Below, in pieces: positions 1,026-7,767 of a stretch of 39,195 nt of DNA. Each line of letters opens with the position of its first letter. The first letter of the stretch is position 1. Below the pieces are notes generated by a model, which had not been told where the DNA came from, ran no database searches, and saw only the letters and a program-made list of their open reading frames with translations. The stretch is from a virus: positions 1-39,195 of the IMG/VR virus record IMGVR_UViG_3300029448_006048. One strand, written 5' to 3'. Both the position numbers and the translations under genes were made by a program.

Positions 1026-1631
1026 ATGAATAAATTATTAACTTTATTACTAGCCTTTACCATGACACCGCTTTTTGCGGGTGTTTCTGGTTCTATGGCG
1101 CTAACGTCTGACTACTTCTTTAGAGGAGAAAGTCAAACTATGGGATCATCTGCTTTACAAGGCGGAGTTGATTATAATAACGGTGGTTTTTATGCTGGAG
1201 TATGGGCATCAACCGTAGATCTTGGCATGGATACTGAAATGGAGTATGACTTCTATTCAGGATATGCTGTCGCATTAGACGATTTAGCTATTGATGTAGG
1301 TATTATTCAATACAACTACGATGGCGAAATGGATTCTGTAGAAGAATATTTTATAGTAATGAATTATGCTTGGATGTCGTTCGGATTTTGGTTTGATCAA
1401 GACAACTCGGATTCAGACTATACTGAAATTGAAGTAAATTTACCTTTTATTACATTTGCTGATGTCTCTTTTAGACATGGTGAATTTGGTGATGATACTG
1501 ACTACCAGCAAATTACTATTAGCAAAAGCTTAAACGATCATTTTACAATGGGACTAGAAGTAGTTTCAGAAGAGTCTGTTGAAATAGACCTTGATGAAAG
1601 AATGGCTTTTTACTTAAGTTACAACTTTTAG
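1026..1631 (+). CDS. TorF/Gcw_chp-family outer-membrane porin-like protein
   Basis: This is a 201-residue protein. Residues 1-18 are a Sec signal peptide with cleavage probably after LFA. The mature N-terminus has the family signature (LTSDYFFRGESQT, then ALQGGVDY and GFYAGVWAST), followed by alternating polar/aromatic beta strands. The last residue is Phe (YLSYNF), the typical beta-barrel signal for outer-membrane insertion by the BAM machinery. Bacterial members of this family are putative porins of poorly known function, usually a little longer than this copy. A GGGAG site precedes the ATG, and the stop overlaps the GTG of the IscU gene. In a phage it would be an auxiliary host-derived gene, perhaps altering uptake or receptor exposure during infection; that role is inference. 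Confidence 0.85.
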   Translation: MNKLLTLLLAFTMTPLFAGVSGSMALTSDYFFRGESQTMGSSALQGGVDYNNGGFYAGVWASTVDLGMDTEMEYDFYSGYAVALDDLAIDVGIIQYNYDGEMDSVEEYFIVMNYAWMSFGFWFDQDNSDSDYTEIEVNLPFITFADVSFRHGEFGDDTDYQQITISKSLNDHFTMGLEVVSEESVEIDLDERMAFYLSYNF

Positions 1632-2056
1632 TGGCTTATTCGCAGAAAGTTATCGACAGGTTTGAATCTGTACTTAATAACCCTGCACAAAACTCGGTCG
1701 GTAGGTTTGACCCTAAAGACCCCAATGTTGCAACAGGTATGGTGGGAGCACCTGCCTGCGGCGACGTTATGAAACTAGACCTAAAGCTAGACAATGACGA
1801 TAGAATACTAGATGTTAAGTTTAAGACTTATGGTTGTGGTTCAGCAATCGCTTCTTCTACAATGTTTGTAGAGATGTTAAAAGGAAAAACAATCGAAGAA
1901 GCAAAATTAATTAAAGACAAGGACATAGCAACAGCCCTTGAGCTGCCTCCAATTAAGCTTCACTGTTCAGTACTAGCTGAATCAGGAATAAAGAAAGCAA
2001 TAGAAAATTGGGAGCAGAAAAAAGCACACAGGCTACACAATGGAGGGCCTTTATAA
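1631..2056 (+). CDS. iscU: IscU-type iron-sulfur cluster scaffold protein
   Basis: This is a 141-residue protein closely resembling bacterial IscU, the scaffold on which IscS builds [2Fe-2S] clusters before transfer by HscA/HscB. The three ligand cysteines are present: C43 in APACGDVM with D45, C69 in YGCGSAIASS, and C112 in the H-C pair at 111-112. The LPPIK at 105-109 matches the LPPVK motif recognised by HscA. The N-terminus (MAYSQKVIDRFE) is also IscU-like, with a short insertion before the VGRFD segment. The start is a GTG overlapping the previous stop by one base; the next ATG would remove conserved sequence. No iscS, iscA or hscA lies nearby, so the product would have to use host partners. 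It is an auxiliary metabolic gene, apparently intact. Confidence 0.95.
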   Translation: MAYSQKVIDRFESVLNNPAQNSVGRFDPKDPNVATGMVGAPACGDVMKLDLKLDNDDRILDVKFKTYGCGSAIASSTMFVEMLKGKTIEEAKLIKDKDIATALELPPIKLHCSVLAESGIKKAIENWEQKKAHRLHNGGPL

Positions 2057-2277
2057 TGGAAAAAGAATATCAAACAAAAGACATTAAAGCAACGGAGACA
2101 AAAATGGAAGCACCAAAACCAAGTAAAATGGGAAAACCTGAAGAAATGGCAGATGGTCATATCTTTGAGAAAGAAGGATTATTCTTCTTTAACTGGAAAG
2201 GCGGACAATGTGGTTATGGCTGCAGAGAAGATGCAGAACTAGGACTTAAGAAAGTAAGTGGCAACCACGATAGCTAA
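2056..2277 (+). CDS. Small protein with aromatic patch and Cys pair, IscU neighbour
   Basis: This is a 73-residue protein starting at the ATG that overlaps the IscU stop by one base; an upstream in-frame start at 2008 is less likely because it runs inside IscU. The first half is charged and low in structure (KPSKMGKPEEMADG), and the second half holds GLFFFNWKGGQCGYGC, with two cysteines spaced CxxxC followed by a charged helix. I do not recognise the family. Tight coupling to iscU hints at a joint role such as metal or cluster handling, but two cysteines are not enough to claim that. Confidence 0.7.
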   Translation: MEKEYQTKDIKATETKMEAPKPSKMGKPEEMADGHIFEKEGLFFFNWKGGQCGYGCREDAELGLKKVSGNHDS

Positions 2278-2497
2278 AATTAAAGACTGGTGGTACTGGT
2301 TTCTTAGTTGGTTTATAGTTTACCATGAATTAACCGTCAGCTACAACAGTCAATGGGGAGATGCAGACGATCAAACCTTTATAGTTAGAAAATTCTATAA
2401 AAAACAACCAAACTATATCCGATTTAAAACACAAGATGGAGATATAGTCGAACTACGAGGCGCAGAAGGTCTCAATTACAGGATAAAACAAATATGA
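2258..2497 (+). CDS. Hypothetical small membrane-associated protein
   Basis: This is a 79-residue protein starting at a GTG that overlaps the previous gene by 20 bases. Residues about 10-22 are tryptophan- and aromatic-rich (WWYWFLSWFIVYHE), a likely interfacial or transmembrane anchor. The remainder looks like a small beta fold (DQTFIVRKFYKKQPNYIRF, then GDIVELRGAEGLNYRI). No strong ribosome-binding site precedes the GTG, so translation is probably coupled. Similar short proteins occur in other marine phages as I recall them, with no assigned function. Confidence 0.6.
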   Translation: MATTIAKIKDWWYWFLSWFIVYHELTVSYNSQWGDADDQTFIVRKFYKKQPNYIRFKTQDGDIVELRGAEGLNYRIKQI

Positions 2498-2631
2498 TTG
2501 AATTAATACTCATAATAACCATAGCAACTATGGCAACTTCTACAGAAACATCCACTGAAACAACAACAGTGACAGTAACAACTACAAGCACAAGTACTAT
2601 GACTAGTACTTCTACTTCAACAGGTACATGA
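2494..2631 (+). CDS. 45-residue Thr/Ser-rich mini-protein with hydrophobic N-terminus
   Basis: The ATG overlaps the previous stop (ATGA) and the TGA overlaps the next ATG, so this short frame fits exactly between its neighbours with 4-base overlaps on both sides. Residues 1-12 are hydrophobic (MIELILIITIAT), followed by about 30 residues made almost only of Thr and Ser with a few Glu, Val and Met. No family is recognised. The fit between the overlaps supports real translation; the low-complexity tail could be a periplasmic or glycosylatable stalk, which is speculation. Confidence 0.5.
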   Translation: MIELILIITIATMATSTETSTETTTVTVTTTSTSTMTSTSTSTGT

Positions 2632-3023
2632 ACCAATTACTAATAGGAATTATACTTGTTTTAGGTCTTGGAAGCTACTATCTTTACAACCAAAACCAAG
2701 TACTAACAGCCAACAATAAAGCATTAGAAGGTGCGATAGCAACTCAAGAAGAAGCTATTGCTACTATGCAAGAAGATTTTACTAATCAAACTAATCAGTT
2801 GCAAGAAATGACTTTAAGAAGTCAGCAGGCACAATTAGAATTAAACAAATATGGCGAGTTTTTAAAAAATTACGAGTTGAGTGATAAAATATTACAAGAC
2901 CCAGTAAAAATGGAAAGGAAAATAAACAATGGAACAAAACATGCATTCGAAGGCATCGAAAAACTTAGTGCTACCGTTGACGATCTTGATGATGGTCTCC
3001 AGTTGCAGTCTAATTCCAACTAA
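2628..3023 (+). CDS. i-spanin candidate (Rz-like inner-membrane coiled coil)
   Basis: This is a 131-residue protein. Residues 4-20 form an N-terminal signal anchor (LLIGIILVLGLGSYYLY), followed by a long coiled coil rich in Gln, Glu and Leu (about residues 25-95). This is the standard i-spanin layout, with one end in the inner membrane and the helix spanning the periplasm. The downstream lipoprotein gene begins inside it, in another reading frame, with a 95-base overlap, as in overlapping Rz/Rz1 pairs. The start overlaps the previous stop by 4 bases. With the lipoprotein it would disrupt the outer membrane in the last step of lysis. The pair architecture makes this the better of the two spanin candidates in the window. 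Confidence 0.75.
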   Translation: MNQLLIGIILVLGLGSYYLYNQNQVLTANNKALEGAIATQEEAIATMQEDFTNQTNQLQEMTLRSQQAQLELNKYGEFLKNYELSDKILQDPVKMERKINNGTKHAFEGIEKLSATVDDLDDGLQLQSNSN

Positions 3024-3318
3024 GGAAATACAAGTAACAGCAAAACCAATGGAAAGAACCATTGTGCAACCTGTTATGCCTAGAGAAATTTCTCTAAGCA
3101 ACCCTACTTTTATAGTGGTAACACCCGATAACTGGGAAGAACAGTTAGCACGAATAGAAGAACAAGAGGGAGAATTAGTATTCTTAGCTATGACAGTACC
3201 AGATTACGAAGTTATGTCTATGAATATTCAAGAACTGAGAAGGTATATCACAGAACTTAAGGATGTAGTAGTCTATTATAGAAAAGTTACTGCTCCTAAG
3301 AAAGATGAAGGCAAGTAG
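2929..3318 (+). CDS. o-spanin candidate (Rz1-like outer-membrane lipoprotein)
   Basis: This is a 129-residue protein in a different frame from the i-spanin candidate and overlapping its last 95 bases. A lysine-bearing N-terminus and the hydrophobic stretch LVLPLTILMM lead to a lipobox VSSC, with candidate lipidated Cys at residue 26. The mature part has a proline-containing linker and an alpha-helical C-terminal half (IQELRRYITELKDVV). At 129 residues it is longer than classical Rz1. An AGGAA lies about 10 bases before the ATG, inside the upstream gene. The lipoprotein nature and overlapping arrangement are visible; the o-spanin role is inferred from them. Confidence 0.75.
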   Translation: MEQNMHSKASKNLVLPLTILMMVSSCSLIPTKEIQVTAKPMERTIVQPVMPREISLSNPTFIVVTPDNWEEQLARIEEQEGELVFLAMTVPDYEVMSMNIQELRRYITELKDVVVYYRKVTAPKKDEGK

Positions 3319-3445
3319 ACTTAAAGTTTGTAATAGTTGTCCTCACTTAAATAAATTTAAGGTGTGTAAAGTATGCAAATGCTTTATGCCTCTTAAAGCA
3401 AGGATTAAGAGAGCTGAGTGCCCTCTTAAAAAATGGGAGAAATGA
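3305..3445 (+). CDS. 46-residue Cys-rich zinc-ribbon-like protein
   Basis: This short frame overlaps the lipoprotein gene by 14 bases. It carries six cysteines (residues 9, 12, 21, 24, 26, 39) in a VCNSC ... VCKVCKCFMP ... ECPLKKW arrangement, which looks like a small zinc-binding fold. I recall closely similar mini-proteins in T4-like cyanophages and other marine phages (DUF6171-like; name from memory). The function is unknown; DNA or protein binding is possible. The conserved CxxC spacing and C-terminal CP-KKW motif make it a real gene despite its length. Confidence 0.75.
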   Translation: MKASRLKVCNSCPHLNKFKVCKVCKCFMPLKARIKRAECPLKKWEK

Positions 3446-3625
3446 ATGGATATGGTAAACAAATGTATAGCTTGGGTAAAAGCTAGAGTATCAGAAAGAA
3501 CATCTTGGGATGGAGCTTTATTGATTCTTGTATGCGGTCTAGTATTATTTACAGGCGGCGTAGCTAAATTATTAGCGTGGGTAGGTCTTGGTTGGGGAAT
3601 CTGGACTTGTTATAAATCGGAGTAA
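3446..3625 (+). CDS. 59-residue two-helix membrane protein (possible holin)
   Basis: The ATG directly follows the previous TGA. The sequence is amphipathic for about 20 residues (WVKARVSERTSWDG) and then has two closely spaced hydrophobic segments at about residues 24-38 and 41-54 (ALLILVCGLVLF and LLAWVGLGWGIW), ending in KSE. I recall the ERTSWDG-plus-two-helices layout from small proteins of marine phages. Size and topology fit a class II/III-like holin, and the spanin pair is close upstream, but no experiment ties the family to lysis that I can cite. Confidence 0.65.
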   Translation: MDMVNKCIAWVKARVSERTSWDGALLILVCGLVLFTGGVAKLLAWVGLGWGIWTCYKSE

Positions 3626-3628
3626 ATA

Positions 3629-3712
3629 ATGCCATCAGGAAAAGGAACATACGGGAAGACTAGAGGTCGACCTAAGAAGAAAAAGAGAGGAAAGAAACGT
3701 GGCAAAAAGTAG
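3629..3712 (+). CDS. 27-residue Lys/Arg-rich mini-protein
   Basis: The ATG follows the previous stop by 3 bases. The product begins PSGKGTYGKTRGRP and ends in a lysine-arginine tail. The PSGKGTYG start is recurrent among tiny phage proteins as I recall them. Its last 14 bases overlap the GTG start of the next basic gene. The function is unknown; the charge suggests nucleic-acid binding. Confidence 0.55.
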   Translation: MPSGKGTYGKTRGRPKKKKRGKKRGKK

Positions 3713-3860
3713 GGGTTTATATGCAAATATAAATCGCCGAAAGAAAAAAGGCATAAGTAGAAGTCGTAAGAAATCTACTATATCTGCCAAGGCTTATCGC
3801 TTGATGAAATCAGGTTTTAAGAAAAAGAAGAAACGTGGCAGTAAAAAGAAGAAAAAGTAA
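3699..3860 (+). CDS. 53-residue very basic phage protein (SRGLYANI type)
   Basis: It starts at a GTG inside AAACGTGGCA and overlaps its neighbours by 14 bases upstream and 26 bases downstream. The product begins AKSRGLYANINRRKKKG, continues with STISAKAYRLMKSGF and ends in a run of lysines. The SRGLYANI ... STIS-KAY pattern is one I recognise from small proteins of many tailed phages. The function is unknown. The lysine content suggests DNA binding, possibly inside the head, but that is inference. Confidence 0.7.
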   Translation: MAKSRGLYANINRRKKKGISRSRKKSTISAKAYRLMKSGFKKKKKRGSKKKKK

Positions 3861-4140
3861 GTCTAAAAAGTCCTCACGGTTAAAAAGAGTGGGCGTATCA
3901 GGTTACAATAAACCAAAGCGTACGCCCAAGCACCGAACAAAGTCTCATGTCGTTGTAGCAAAAGTTGGTAATAAAACTAAAACTATACGATTTGGTCAAC
4001 AAGGCGTGCGAGGAGCAGGAAAATCTCCAAAATCAACCGCACAAAAGAAAAGAAGAGCTTCATTCAAGGCTCGTCATGCCAAAAATATAGCTAAAGGCAA
4101 AATGTCAGCAGCTTATTGGGCAAACAAGGTAAAATGGTAG
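3835..4140 (+). CDS. Conserved 101-residue basic phage protein
   Basis: It starts at a GTG, again inside AAACGTGGCA. After a lysine/serine/arginine-rich N-terminus come segments conserved among marine phages as I recall them: GYNKPKRTPKHRTKSHVVV, then IRFGQQGVRGAG and SFKARHAKNIAKGKMSAAYW, ending ANKVKW. This looks like the DUF6321-type family (name from memory, not searched). The function is not known. It is the largest member of a block of basic genes located just before the packaging genes, so a DNA-associated role is plausible. Confidence 0.85.
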   Translation: MAVKRRKSKSKKSSRLKRVGVSGYNKPKRTPKHRTKSHVVVAKVGNKTKTIRFGQQGVRGAGKSPKSTAQKKRRASFKARHAKNIAKGKMSAAYWANKVKW

Positions 4141-4826: not shown

Positions 4827-6128
4827 ATGTTAGAAGTAAGTAGAAAAGACGTTCTAAGCGATACGTTAATGGAATTTGATACTGAATCAAGATTTATTAA
4901 ATTACCTATTGATAGTTACCTAGACTTATTAGGTATTACACCTAATACTGCTCAGGTATCTCTTATCAATGCAATAAACAATCCAAAATATAGATTCGTT
5001 TGTGCAGCCATTTCTAGGCGACAAGGTAAAACTTATATTACAAATGTCATTGGACAGCTTGTATCTCTCGTGCCAAACTCTAATATCTTAATCATGTCTC
5101 CAAACTATGCTTTGTCTCAAATCTCATTTGATTTGCAAAGACAACTAATCAAACATTTTGATTTAGAAGTAGTAAGAGATAATGCTAAAGATAAAGTAAT
5201 TGAGCTATCTAATGGCTCAACAATAAGAATGGGATCAGTTAATCAGGTGGATTCAACTGTTGGTCGTTCTTATGATTTAATCATATTTGACGAAGCTGCA
5301 TTAGCAGACGGTAAAGACGCCTTCAATGTAGCATTACGCCCAACTCTAGACAAAGAAAACAGTAAAGCAGTATTTATTTCTACTCCTCGGGGAAGAAATA
5401 ATTGGTTTGCAGACTTTTGGCAAAGAGGATATAATGATGAATTTAAAGACTGGTGTGCTATAAGAGCCACCTATCATGAAAATCCAAGATTTAGTGAAGA
5501 AGATATTATAGAAGCAAAAAAAGCAATGTCCCAAGCTGAATTTGCTCAAGAATATTTAGCTGACTTTAATACTTATGAAGGTCAGGTTTGGAACTTTAAT
5601 TTTGAAGAGTGTGTGGCTGACTTAAGTCAACTAGATACTCGCAGGATGGATGTATTTGCAGGACTAGATGTAGGATATAAAGATCCTACAGCTTTATGTG
5701 TGATAGCATACGATTGGGACGAAGAAAAATATTATCTTATAGACGAATACATGGATGCTGAAAAAACTACTGAACAGCATGCAATACAAATTCAAGAAAG
5801 AATTCAAAAATATGGTATTGACTATATTTATATTGATTCAGCTGCTCAACAGACTAGATTTGATTTTGCTCAAAATTATGATATTTCAACAATTAATGCG
5901 AAAAAATCAGTTCTAGATGGAATTGGACATTGTTCTACTATAGTAGATAATAACAAATTAATTGTAGATCAAAGGTGTGCTAATACTCTGTCGGCAGTAG
6001 ATCAGTACCAATGGGATCCAAACCCTAATTTGATGAAAGAAAAGCCGAAACACAATATGGCAAGTCATATGAGTGATGCGCTAAGATATGCGCTGTATAC
6101 TTTTGAGACAACAGCGACTAGTTTTTAA
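4827..6128 (+). CDS. terL: Terminase large subunit (packaging ATPase/nuclease)
   Basis: This is a 433-residue protein that packages DNA into the procapsid and cuts it at start and end. The ATPase domain has a deviant Walker A (SRRQGKT, K68 T69), Walker B LIIFDE at 151-156 and a coupling motif ISTP at about 184. The C-terminal RNase H-like nuclease domain has the expected acidic residues: D281 in LDVGYKDP, D337 in IYIDSA and D417 in HMSDALRY. The length is normal for compact terminases. It is followed by an intergenic promoter and the HNH and portal genes. Confidence 0.97.
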   Translation: MLEVSRKDVLSDTLMEFDTESRFIKLPIDSYLDLLGITPNTAQVSLINAINNPKYRFVCAAISRRQGKTYITNVIGQLVSLVPNSNILIMSPNYALSQISFDLQRQLIKHFDLEVVRDNAKDKVIELSNGSTIRMGSVNQVDSTVGRSYDLIIFDEAALADGKDAFNVALRPTLDKENSKAVFISTPRGRNNWFADFWQRGYNDEFKDWCAIRATYHENPRFSEEDIIEAKKAMSQAEFAQEYLADFNTYEGQVWNFNFEECVADLSQLDTRRMDVFAGLDVGYKDPTALCVIAYDWDEEKYYLIDEYMDAEKTTEQHAIQIQERIQKYGIDYIYIDSAAQQTRFDFAQNYDISTINAKKSVLDGIGHCSTIVDNNKLIVDQRCANTLSAVDQYQWDPNPNLMKEKPKHNMASHMSDALRYALYTFETTATSF

Positions 6129-6200: not shown

Positions 6201-6572
6201 ATGGATTTAAAAAGGGATTTAGTCAAGTACGTTAGAGATAAAGCGAAAGCTAAATATAAAAAAGACACTCAGTGCTTTATCTGTGGAGAGACAGAAAATT
6301 TAGACTTTCACCACTTCTACGGAATGACCGAGCTATTGTCAAAATGGCTACAAACTAATAAAATTACGATAACATCCGCCGATGAAATAATGAATATCCG
6401 TGAACAGTTTATTGAAGAATATACTAATGAGATATATAACGAGGCTGCTACTTTATGTAAAACTCATCACATAAGGTTGCATAGTATTTATGGTAAAAGA
6501 CCAAAGCTAGTTACAGCACTTAAACAAAAACGATGGGTGCAGAAACAGAGAGATAAATATGGCATGGTATGA
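6201..6572 (+). CDS. HNH endonuclease
   Basis: This is a 123-residue protein. A zinc knuckle is formed by C25-x2-C28 (CFIC) and C86-x2-H89. The HNH core shows DFHHF at 35-39 and CKTHHIRLH at 86-94, giving the metal-binding and general-base histidines. HNH nucleases next to terminase and portal are common in HK97-type phages, where the HK97 example (gp74) supports DNA cleavage during packaging. The position between terL and portal suggests the same here, rather than a homing nuclease, although homing cannot be excluded. Its 3' end overlaps the portal start by 14 bases. Confidence 0.85.
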   Translation: MDLKRDLVKYVRDKAKAKYKKDTQCFICGETENLDFHHFYGMTELLSKWLQTNKITITSADEIMNIREQFIEEYTNEIYNEAATLCKTHHIRLHSIYGKRPKLVTALKQKRWVQKQRDKYGMV

Positions 6573-7767
6573 TAGATTTTTAGGCATCGAAAGAGAGGAG
6601 AAGTTAAATCCTGCTCAACGATACATTGGCCTAGAAGAAGGACTAGCAATAGATACTCGTGAGAAGAAAGATAATTATCGATCAGCTTACGAAGAACTAG
6701 AAGTAGTCAATCGCGCAGTCAACATGATTGTTGACGATTCTGCTGATATTAGATATACGGTAGGTACTAAGGTACAAGGAATTACACCAGTTGTAGAAAA
6801 TGTTCGAAGAACTCGTGTTGATTTGTTACTTAACAAAGAACCGAACCCTTTTCAAGATATCAATACCTTTAAGAGAAATCTAGTTATTGATTTGTTGATT
6901 GATGGAAACATATTCATTTATTATGACGGTGTCCATCTTTATCATTTACCTGCACAAAATGTTACCATAGAAGCCGATACGGATACATATGTTAGCAAGT
7001 ATGTTTATGATGGTCAAATAGACTACTCCCCAAAAGAAATTATACATATTAAGGAAAACTCATTTCATTCAATATATAGGGGAGTACCTAGACTAAAACC
7101 AGCGTACAGAACAATGTACTTAATGGATAGTATGAGAAAATTTCAGGACAACTTCTTTAAAAATGGAGCGGTTCCAGGTTTAGTACTTAAGAGCCCTAAT
7201 ACTCTTTCTGAGAAAATCAAAGAAAGGATGTTACAGGCCTGGAGCACTAGATATAATCCAAAGAACGGAGGTCGAAGACCTCTAATCTTAGATGGCGGCT
7301 TAGAAGTAGACAGTCTAACTAAAGTAAACTTTAAAGAACTGGACTTTCAACCCTCTATAGCAGCCAATGAAAAAGTAATTTTAGAAGCATTAGGTGTACC
7401 GCCGATTCTTCTAGACGGTGGGAATAATGCGAACATTAGACCTAACCATAGACTTTATTACTTGGAGACAGTTCTTCCAGTAGTAAGAAAAATAGCATAT
7501 GCCTGTGAACGGTATTTCGGATTTGAACTAGTTGAGGATGTTACTAATGTTCCAGCTTTACAACCGGAATTACGAGACCAAGCTGCATATTATGCTACTT
7601 TGGTTAATACAGGTATTATGTCACCAAACGAAGCAAGAGACGCCTTAGGAAAAGAGCCTTTAGAAGGGCACGATGACTTAAGAGTTCCAGCTAACATAGC
7701 GGGTAGCGCAGCAGACCCCACAGAAGGTGGAAGACCACCAGAAGAATCAGAGGAAAACAATGAATAA
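6559..7767 (+). CDS. Portal protein (HK97 family)
   Basis: This is a 402-residue protein forming the dodecameric DNA channel at one capsid vertex. Recognisable parts are the N-terminal YEELEVVNRAVNMIVDDSA helix region, NPFQDINTFKRNLVIDLLI, the DGNIFIYYDGVHLYHLPA strand region, a stem segment with GAVPGLVLKSP, and the [18 protein letters not shown] crown-proximal region. The C-terminus is proline/glutamate rich and disordered. Order and length fit HK97 gp3-type portals. The start overlaps the HNH gene by 14 bases. Confidence 0.93.
   Translation: MAWYDRFLGIEREEKLNPAQRYIGLEEGLAIDTREKKDNYRSAYEELEVVNRAVNMIVDDSADIRYTVGTKVQGITPVVENVRRTRVDLLLNKEPNPFQDINTFKRNLVIDLLIDGNIFIYYDGVHLYHLPAQNVTIEADTDTYVSKYVYDGQIDYSPKEIIHIKENSFHSIYRGVPRLKPAYRTMYLMDSMRKFQDNFFKNGAVPGLVLKSPNTLSEKIKERMLQAWSTRYNPKNGGRRPLILDGGLEVDSLTKVNFKELDFQPSIAANEKVILEALGVPPILLDGGNNANIRPNHRLYYLETVLPVVRKIAYACERYFGFELVEDVTNVPALQPELRDQAAYYATLVNTGIMSPNEARDALGKEPLEGHDDLRVPANIAGSAADPTEGGRPPEESEENNE

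Follow-up and report, generated by a model that had tools for sequence, protein, structure and literature searches.

HscA is the chaperone usually paired with the Fe-S scaffold protein IscU. The IscU of E. coli, which works with HscA/HscB, has the same fold and ligands as the viral protein described here and carries the motif LPPVK. The iscU gene is already known in marine phages and is not rare there. It was reported in 2017 that IscU is encoded in 6 environmental viral genomes, and SAR86 was suggested as the host for one copy, OBV_N00005 (PMC5332604); similarly, iscU together with erpA has been described in HMO-2011-type genomes (PMC9038755), and SufA has been described in OM43-type phage genomes, where a figure legend names the Fe-S scaffold protein IsuC (PMC10580990). 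In addition, the NifU-like protein of phage C48C1 (Kyanoviridae, OQ984149) is a phage-borne IscU encoded beside structural/lysis and replication genes. It differs from the IscU described here in having no N-terminal insert, the motif LPPVK and no C-terminal tail, and it was probably acquired separately.

The window analyzed here is a stretch of viral DNA of 39,195 nucleotides, positions 1 to 39,195 of the IMG/VR record IMGVR_UViG_3300029448_006048. Its iscU is the same kind of gene, an auxiliary metabolic gene, as the marine viral iscU in the relevant passages of PMC5332604 and PMC9038755; those passages mention neither the tail, nor the insert, nor the apparent absence of HscA/HscB from SAR86. 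The viral iscU itself is therefore of a known kind, and what is new is its tail and the chaperone-free background from which it appears to come.

The iscU Gene of the Window and Its Neighborhood

The initial annotation had described a phage-borne IscU with its functional residues and chaperone motif intact, and this description holds: the cluster-site residues C43, D45, C69, H111 and C112 are complete, and the motif L105-P-P-I-K109 is in place (Table 1). The protein matches Pfam NifU_N with E = 9.2e-42 (137.2 bits, cut-off 22), a score too high for a chance match, and PHROG 8429 (NifU-like Fe-S cluster assembly protein; E 4.2e-27), which belongs to the auxiliary metabolic category of PHROGs. 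The latter family is also matched by the 24 IGHNNPP proteins described below, and it gives a family name only, silent on partners. Against the IscU equivalog of NCBIfam, TIGR01999, the score of 163.7 bits lies below the cut-off of 192.4; SAR86 IscU also lies below it (178.6 in genome G001), with 1 of 151 order genomes above it, so the window protein is filed under the wider NifU_N family. An AlphaFold2 model (mean pLDDT 83.2, pTM 0.75) has among its top Foldseek matches human ISCU (5wlw; E 9.8e-18) and E. coli IscU as solved together with IscS (3lvl; E 4.3e-16). Judged by profile match and predicted model, the protein is an IscU in both family and fold.

Table 1. Features at and around iscU in the window.
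Feature	Position	Strand	Remarks
Gcw_chp / TorF family putative porin, upstream of iscU	1026..1631	+	PF09694 E 7.1e-21; TIGR02001 E 1.9e-28
iscU	1631..2056	+	141 aa; GTG start overlapping the upstream gene's stop TAG 1629-1631
SAR86-type N-terminal insert region	1667..1687	+	exceeds E. coli IscU by about 6 residues; from alignments and length counts; approximate limits
C43 and D45 codons	1757..1765	+	
C69 codon	1835..1837	+	
LPPIK (residues 105-109), then L110, H111, C112	1943..1966	+	
C-terminal viral tail HNGGPL (residues 136-141)	2036..2053	+	
GGAGG, candidate ribosome-binding site for the next gene	2042..2046	+	from the tail's two Gly codons
73-aa protein	2056..2277	+	ATG 2056-2058 overlaps iscU stop 2054-2056
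Rz-like spanin matches	2628-3023 and 2929-3318		
Small Cys-rich protein	3305-3445		6 Cys in about 46 residues; PHROG 13558 (unknown function)
Terminase large subunit (TerL), packaging module 3' of iscU	4827..6128	+	phrog_2 E 2.2e-48
Portal	6559-7767		

No Pfam, PHROG or NCBIfam match was found for the 73-aa protein, and the Cys-rich protein near iscU is a possible metal-binding protein. Among named phages, no near DNA relatives of window positions 1-25000 were found. The spanin matches, TerL and the portal gene all lie nearby, which agrees with the initial annotation in placing iscU on the lysis/structural side of the genome; the added remark that this position is unusual is not borne out, since iscU often adjoins lysis or packaging genes on other viral contigs and these recurrent settings make the structural-side position ordinary.

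IscU relatives are encoded on at least 596 viral stretches, and the sample compared here consists of the window and the best 80 of these, 81 copies in all. Neighbors were counted on 75 of the 81 contigs, after 6 without a called iscU (L039, L047, L048, L054, L065, L078) had been left out, and neighbor families were identified by profile from cluster representatives. The family of the Gcw_chp porin (family 12) lies upstream of iscU on 16 of the 75 contigs, and that of the 73-aa protein (family 17) lies directly downstream on 15; a further family (family 2) lies upstream of iscU in a TerS-to-TerL block on 23. Other settings among the 75 contigs are near PolB, SNase and RecA genes or near a PD-(D/E)XK nuclease. 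An A-type carrier gene is present on 11 of 80 viral loci, and a further setting is iscU ahead of such a gene (11), sometimes with a glutaredoxin gene as well. On contig L011, positions 2176-3957 encode a protein with CHASE2 and adenylate/guanylate cyclase domains shortly upstream of iscU, and the cluster of this protein is found on 14 of the 81 contigs.

Conservation and Selection

In all 81 viral copies (the best 80 of at least 596 plus the window), every cluster ligand is retained, and the motifs ACGDVMK, YGCGSAIASS and KxHCS are kept. A dN/dS comparison with viral homologues, as had been proposed in the initial annotation, had 805 usable pairs out of 3240 (neither saturated nor too close); their median of 0.107 indicates purifying selection on viral iscU. 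As a gene of apparent host derivation that lies in a viral genome under purifying selection, the window iscU can be classed as an auxiliary metabolic gene. Contigs binned in Sphingobacteriales, Synechococcus, Pelagibacter and Planctomycetes MAGs (L082-L086) also carry an iscU of the viral type, phage tail included; these contigs are probably mis-binned phage.

Origin of the Viral IscU

The phylogeny called for to find the donor lineage was calculated from 171 proteins; identical rows were dropped, which reduced the 81 viral copies to 68 distinct ones, L085 was left out for a masked residue, and 13 bacterial rows, all with duplicates present, were skipped. The viral IscU form one clade of the 68 distinct viral rows and 4 rows of MAG-binned phage (100/100). 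This clade is grouped with the SAR86-family and SAR86-order rows by a branch of 99/95, while the branch that unites it with 13 SAR86-order rows is weak (97/68), and the bootstrap of this tree had not settled. A tree built without the tail and with 20 further viral rows separates viral from bacterial proteins at 100/100 and by itself shows no nesting inside SAR86. The clade of the sampled viral copies is placed, on the first tree, near or inside the IscU of the SAR86 order. Since the viral rows were those closest to the window, iscU of phages farther from it may derive from elsewhere.

The number of residues before PACGD is 40 in 66 of the 68 viral rows, the other 2 being without the first two residues; it is 40 in all 21 SAR86-family rows and 39-40 in 17 of 18 SAR86-order rows. 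Class rows have 34 in 28 of 30 cases, the 2 exceptions owing their extra length to start codon choice, and all 29 phylum rows have 34. The N-terminal insert was also considered as a phage invention, which is ruled out because SAR86 IscU carries the same insert. SAR86-order IscU resembles the window protein in family, ligands, LPPIK and the insert of about 6 residues, with 68-71% identity in 4 aligned SAR86 rows; unlike the viral proteins, it has no C-terminal His-Asn extension (0/21 family rows, 0/18 order rows), and its gene sits in isc operons. Among 398 genomes of the phylum, the best match to the window IscU is from SAR86 (70% identity), and the next reaches 65%. The sole SAR86-order genome with an IscU above the equivalog cut-off (G206, locus L327) has that copy without the insert and a second copy of the SAR86 type.

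It is iscU alone that suggests a SAR86 host for the window phage. A comparison of the window TerL with 107 SAR86-family genomes gave 0 matches, an empty result that carries no weight on the host.

Partners of the Viral IscU

It had been stated that the window encodes none of the partners IscS, HscA and HscB. A tblastn search of the window with SAR86 IscR, IscS, IscU, IscA, Fdx, IscX and DnaK and with a gammaproteobacterial HscA gave one strong match, IscU itself, and 4 others at E 0.17-0.72, which confirms the statement for IscS and HscA. Since the completeness of this IMG/VR record is not given and its last ORF runs off its end, this absence applies to the fragment at hand. The initial annotation concluded that the phage protein would have to work with host partners, and one half of this conclusion stands: with no IscS of its own in the fragment, the window IscU would need a host sulfur source if it acts as a scaffold. 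The other half, the use of HscA/HscB as read from LPPIK, is not supported, because SAR86 has the same motif, yet no HscA or HscB above the cut-off.

Of the 59 rows from the class and phylum, 58 have the canonical LPPVK, and the window has LPPIK in its place. SAR86-family IscU has LPPIK in 20 of 21 rows and LPSIK in 1, SAR86-order IscU has LPPIK in 10 of 18 rows and LPSIK in 8, and LPAIK is found in 11 of the 81 viral copies (best 80 of at least 596 plus the window); judged from these rows, the motif has drifted in SAR86 and phages alike. HscA above the cut-off is found in 0 of 107 SAR86-family genomes and 0 of 151 SAR86-order genomes; HscB is found in 0 of the 107, where 8 matches below the cut-off (frames of 368-373 aa, near an HSP70 gene) are read as DnaJ. 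In the class sample, HscA passes in 31 of 94 genomes, and 30 of the 35 class genomes with IscU above the cut-off also pass for HscA; the E. coli control passed for HscA and HscB. IscU was found in 125 of the 151 order genomes, which are often incomplete, 22 of the 151 being without a strong HSP70 match. The SAR86 isc locus reads iscR-iscS-iscU-iscA-fdx-iscX-ndk (L087), and in 75 SAR86-type isc loci no HSP70 occurs among the first four downstream genes, as far as rough labels show. Unlike E. coli, SAR86 appears to be without HscA/HscB, and the likely host lineage, itself deduced from iscU, would accordingly not provide them. Within the part of the literature covered, no paper naming SAR86 in connection with HscA/HscB was found. 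LPPIK was probably inherited, and since SAR86 carries it without HscA/HscB above the cut-off, it does not speak for the use of HscA. The viral IscU is more likely to have its partners in the host, namely IscS, IscA and ferredoxin.

It had also been proposed that clusters might be diverted to a virion protein, for which the window gives no sign: no Fe-S client was recognized among its proteins by profile matches and by Cys inspection of the tail proteins. A client in the tail tip was considered and rejected, as neither candidate has a Cys cluster; in the 1978-aa tail protein, 10 Cys are scattered and no two of them lie 2-12 residues from each other, and the 239-aa distal tail protein is free of Cys. 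Separately, a stretch labeled 'Acinetobacter phage MD-2021a' (L426, CAKLQH020000011.1) contains a bacterial isc operon in full, including hscB and hscA, next to ppiD, hupB and cyaA, and looks like bacterial chromosome.

The C-Terminal His-Asn Tail

A C-terminal extension with His-Asn is present in 81 of 81 viral IscU (the best 80 of at least 596 plus the window), where His-Asn lies 1-16 residues from the C-terminus, and in 0 of 98 bacterial rows. Both synonymous codons are in play at each position over the 81 copies (49/32 at His, 54/27 at Asn), so it is the amino acids themselves that are conserved. Most sampled tails retain His-Asn only; HNGGP is found in 21 of 81, and 3 of these 21 have IGHNGGP. 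The window tail, RLHNGGPL, falls short of the full string IGHN(G/N)(G/P)P, which related viral IscU do carry. With 5 changes in the tail-less tree, the full tag is at most a candidate for the ancestral state of viral IscU. The extension is a viral trait, which was probably gained when IscU entered phages or later. No other HNGGP-like proteins were found on the 80 viral iscU loci.

Proposed Function and Alternative Explanations

The explanation that we consider probable is that the window carries a phage-owned, SAR86-derived IscU that acts as an extra Fe-S scaffold during infection, independent of HscA/HscB and with a phage-specific tail. The gene would have been captured from the SAR86 order, as family, fold, clade and shared insert suggest, and would then have been kept by purifying selection and spread through several phage groups, which is consistent with one viral clade in differing neighborhoods. 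The intact ligands indicate that the protein most likely offers an additional scaffold for [2Fe-2S] assembly; sulfur would come from host IscS, and clusters would pass to an A-type carrier, ferredoxin or glutaredoxin of the host or the phage. An HscA/HscB step would be missing, as it appears to be in SAR86. The view best supported by the comparisons made here is an extra scaffold which relies on host IscS and carriers and does without HscA/HscB, and docking through the tail is a bolder one. Because the donor lineage appears to be without HscA/HscB, the IscU of SAR86 and of these phages would represent a natural chaperone-free ISC system, and this background together with the tail makes the partners and purpose of viral iscU testable.

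The tail leads to a second explanation, which is unlikely, namely that IscU was recruited to a phage complex, its IGHN-type tail docking at a DNA-processing/packaging complex or entering the particle, where it would deliver or sense Fe-S. The string IGHNGGP was found on at least 120 viral stretches; two equally degenerate peptides with its residues reordered gave 14 and 23. All 80 matches listed, out of at least 120, lie in open frames, and 51 of these 80 are no more than 25 residues away from a terminus (22.7 expected), compared with 12 of 37 for the control peptides (14.9 expected); the enrichment is a lower bound, taken from a partial list with near-copies. After 10 of the 80 listed matches had been left out, mostly near-copies and including seven proteins of a 44-aa type, 70 carriers remained, among which Pfam recognizes up to 17 portal and up to 21 TerL proteins (sums that may count a protein twice), 7 HNH proteins, 3 DNA methylases and 2 IscU. 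The control-peptide carriers are chiefly tail-fiber proteins, as assigned by PHROGs alone, with 25 of 44 families shown and 3 short control ORFs dropped. For IGHNNPP, 6 short ORFs among the 80 listed matches were dropped, and the 74 usable carriers among the matches listed include 24 IscU (20 distinct) with the tag at the C-terminus, 23 proteins of an exonuclease PHROG and 3 late sigma factors. SMIGHNGGPK is the common ending of an unrelated 44-aa protein and of the IscU of L208 and L219. Such a peptide, common to the termini of unrelated phage proteins, is a concrete handle on where phage IscU goes, and the invariance of His and Asn in 81 of 81 copies would suit docking. On the other side, the carriers are so diverse that a shared location is a guess, no binding partner is known, and most IscU tails, the window's included, do not have the full motif. 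It is rather unlikely that the captured SAR86 IscU has become a component of phage assembly, the added peptide tethering Fe-S assembly to the DNA-processing/packaging machinery or loading the particle.

A third explanation, which is improbable, concerns translation: the end of iscU would be kept not for its peptide but for GGAGG, from which ribosomes would start on the overlapping gene that follows. The distance from GGAGG to the ATG of that gene is 9 nt in the window, and among the 21 HNGG tails an SD-like string is present in 19 and the codons GGA GGN in 18. However, His-Asn is kept in 60 of 60 tails without HNGG, and 13 of these 60 have an SD-like string; GGAGG is present in 9 of the 80 general IGHNGGP matches listed, and the codons of IGHNNPP are unable to form it there. 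A ribosome-binding site may thus account for the Gly-Gly of the window's group, but it does not account for His-Asn, which is kept without HNGG or GGAGG.

It is very improbable that the phage protein hinders host Fe-S assembly during shut-off by occupying IscS in competition with host IscU; the modeled IscS-facing fold and the ligands, both intact, would permit such binding, but assembly is better suited by the cluster ligands, which none of the 81 copies has lost, and by the genes for an IscA-type carrier or a glutaredoxin that some of the phages have alongside. An assembly artefact or host contamination, which a single IMG/VR record without read data and the occurrence of such contigs in MAG bins might suggest, is next to negligible, since 15-16 of 75 contigs, which come from many samples, have the same families on either side of iscU, and since the viral copies have a tail of their own and a clade separate from the bacterial rows. 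The chimeric assembly named in the initial annotation is unlikely, because contigs of other metagenomes repeat this gene order.

Some minor observations concern the peptide. A literature search with literal motif strings (e.g., HNGGP, GHNNPP) found no phage paper, judged by title. In 5 matching records of 13, the tag occurs once each, 4 of the 5 and probably all having been chosen for the tag; one tag per phage is not claimed, as L174 has two, L187 has both forms, and contig 3300046660_000192 comprises both L183 and L212. Across the stretches L162-L240 and L435-L513, IGHNGGP or IGHNNPP lies at the ends or in the linkers of portal, TerL, HNH, exonuclease, late sigma and IscU proteins.
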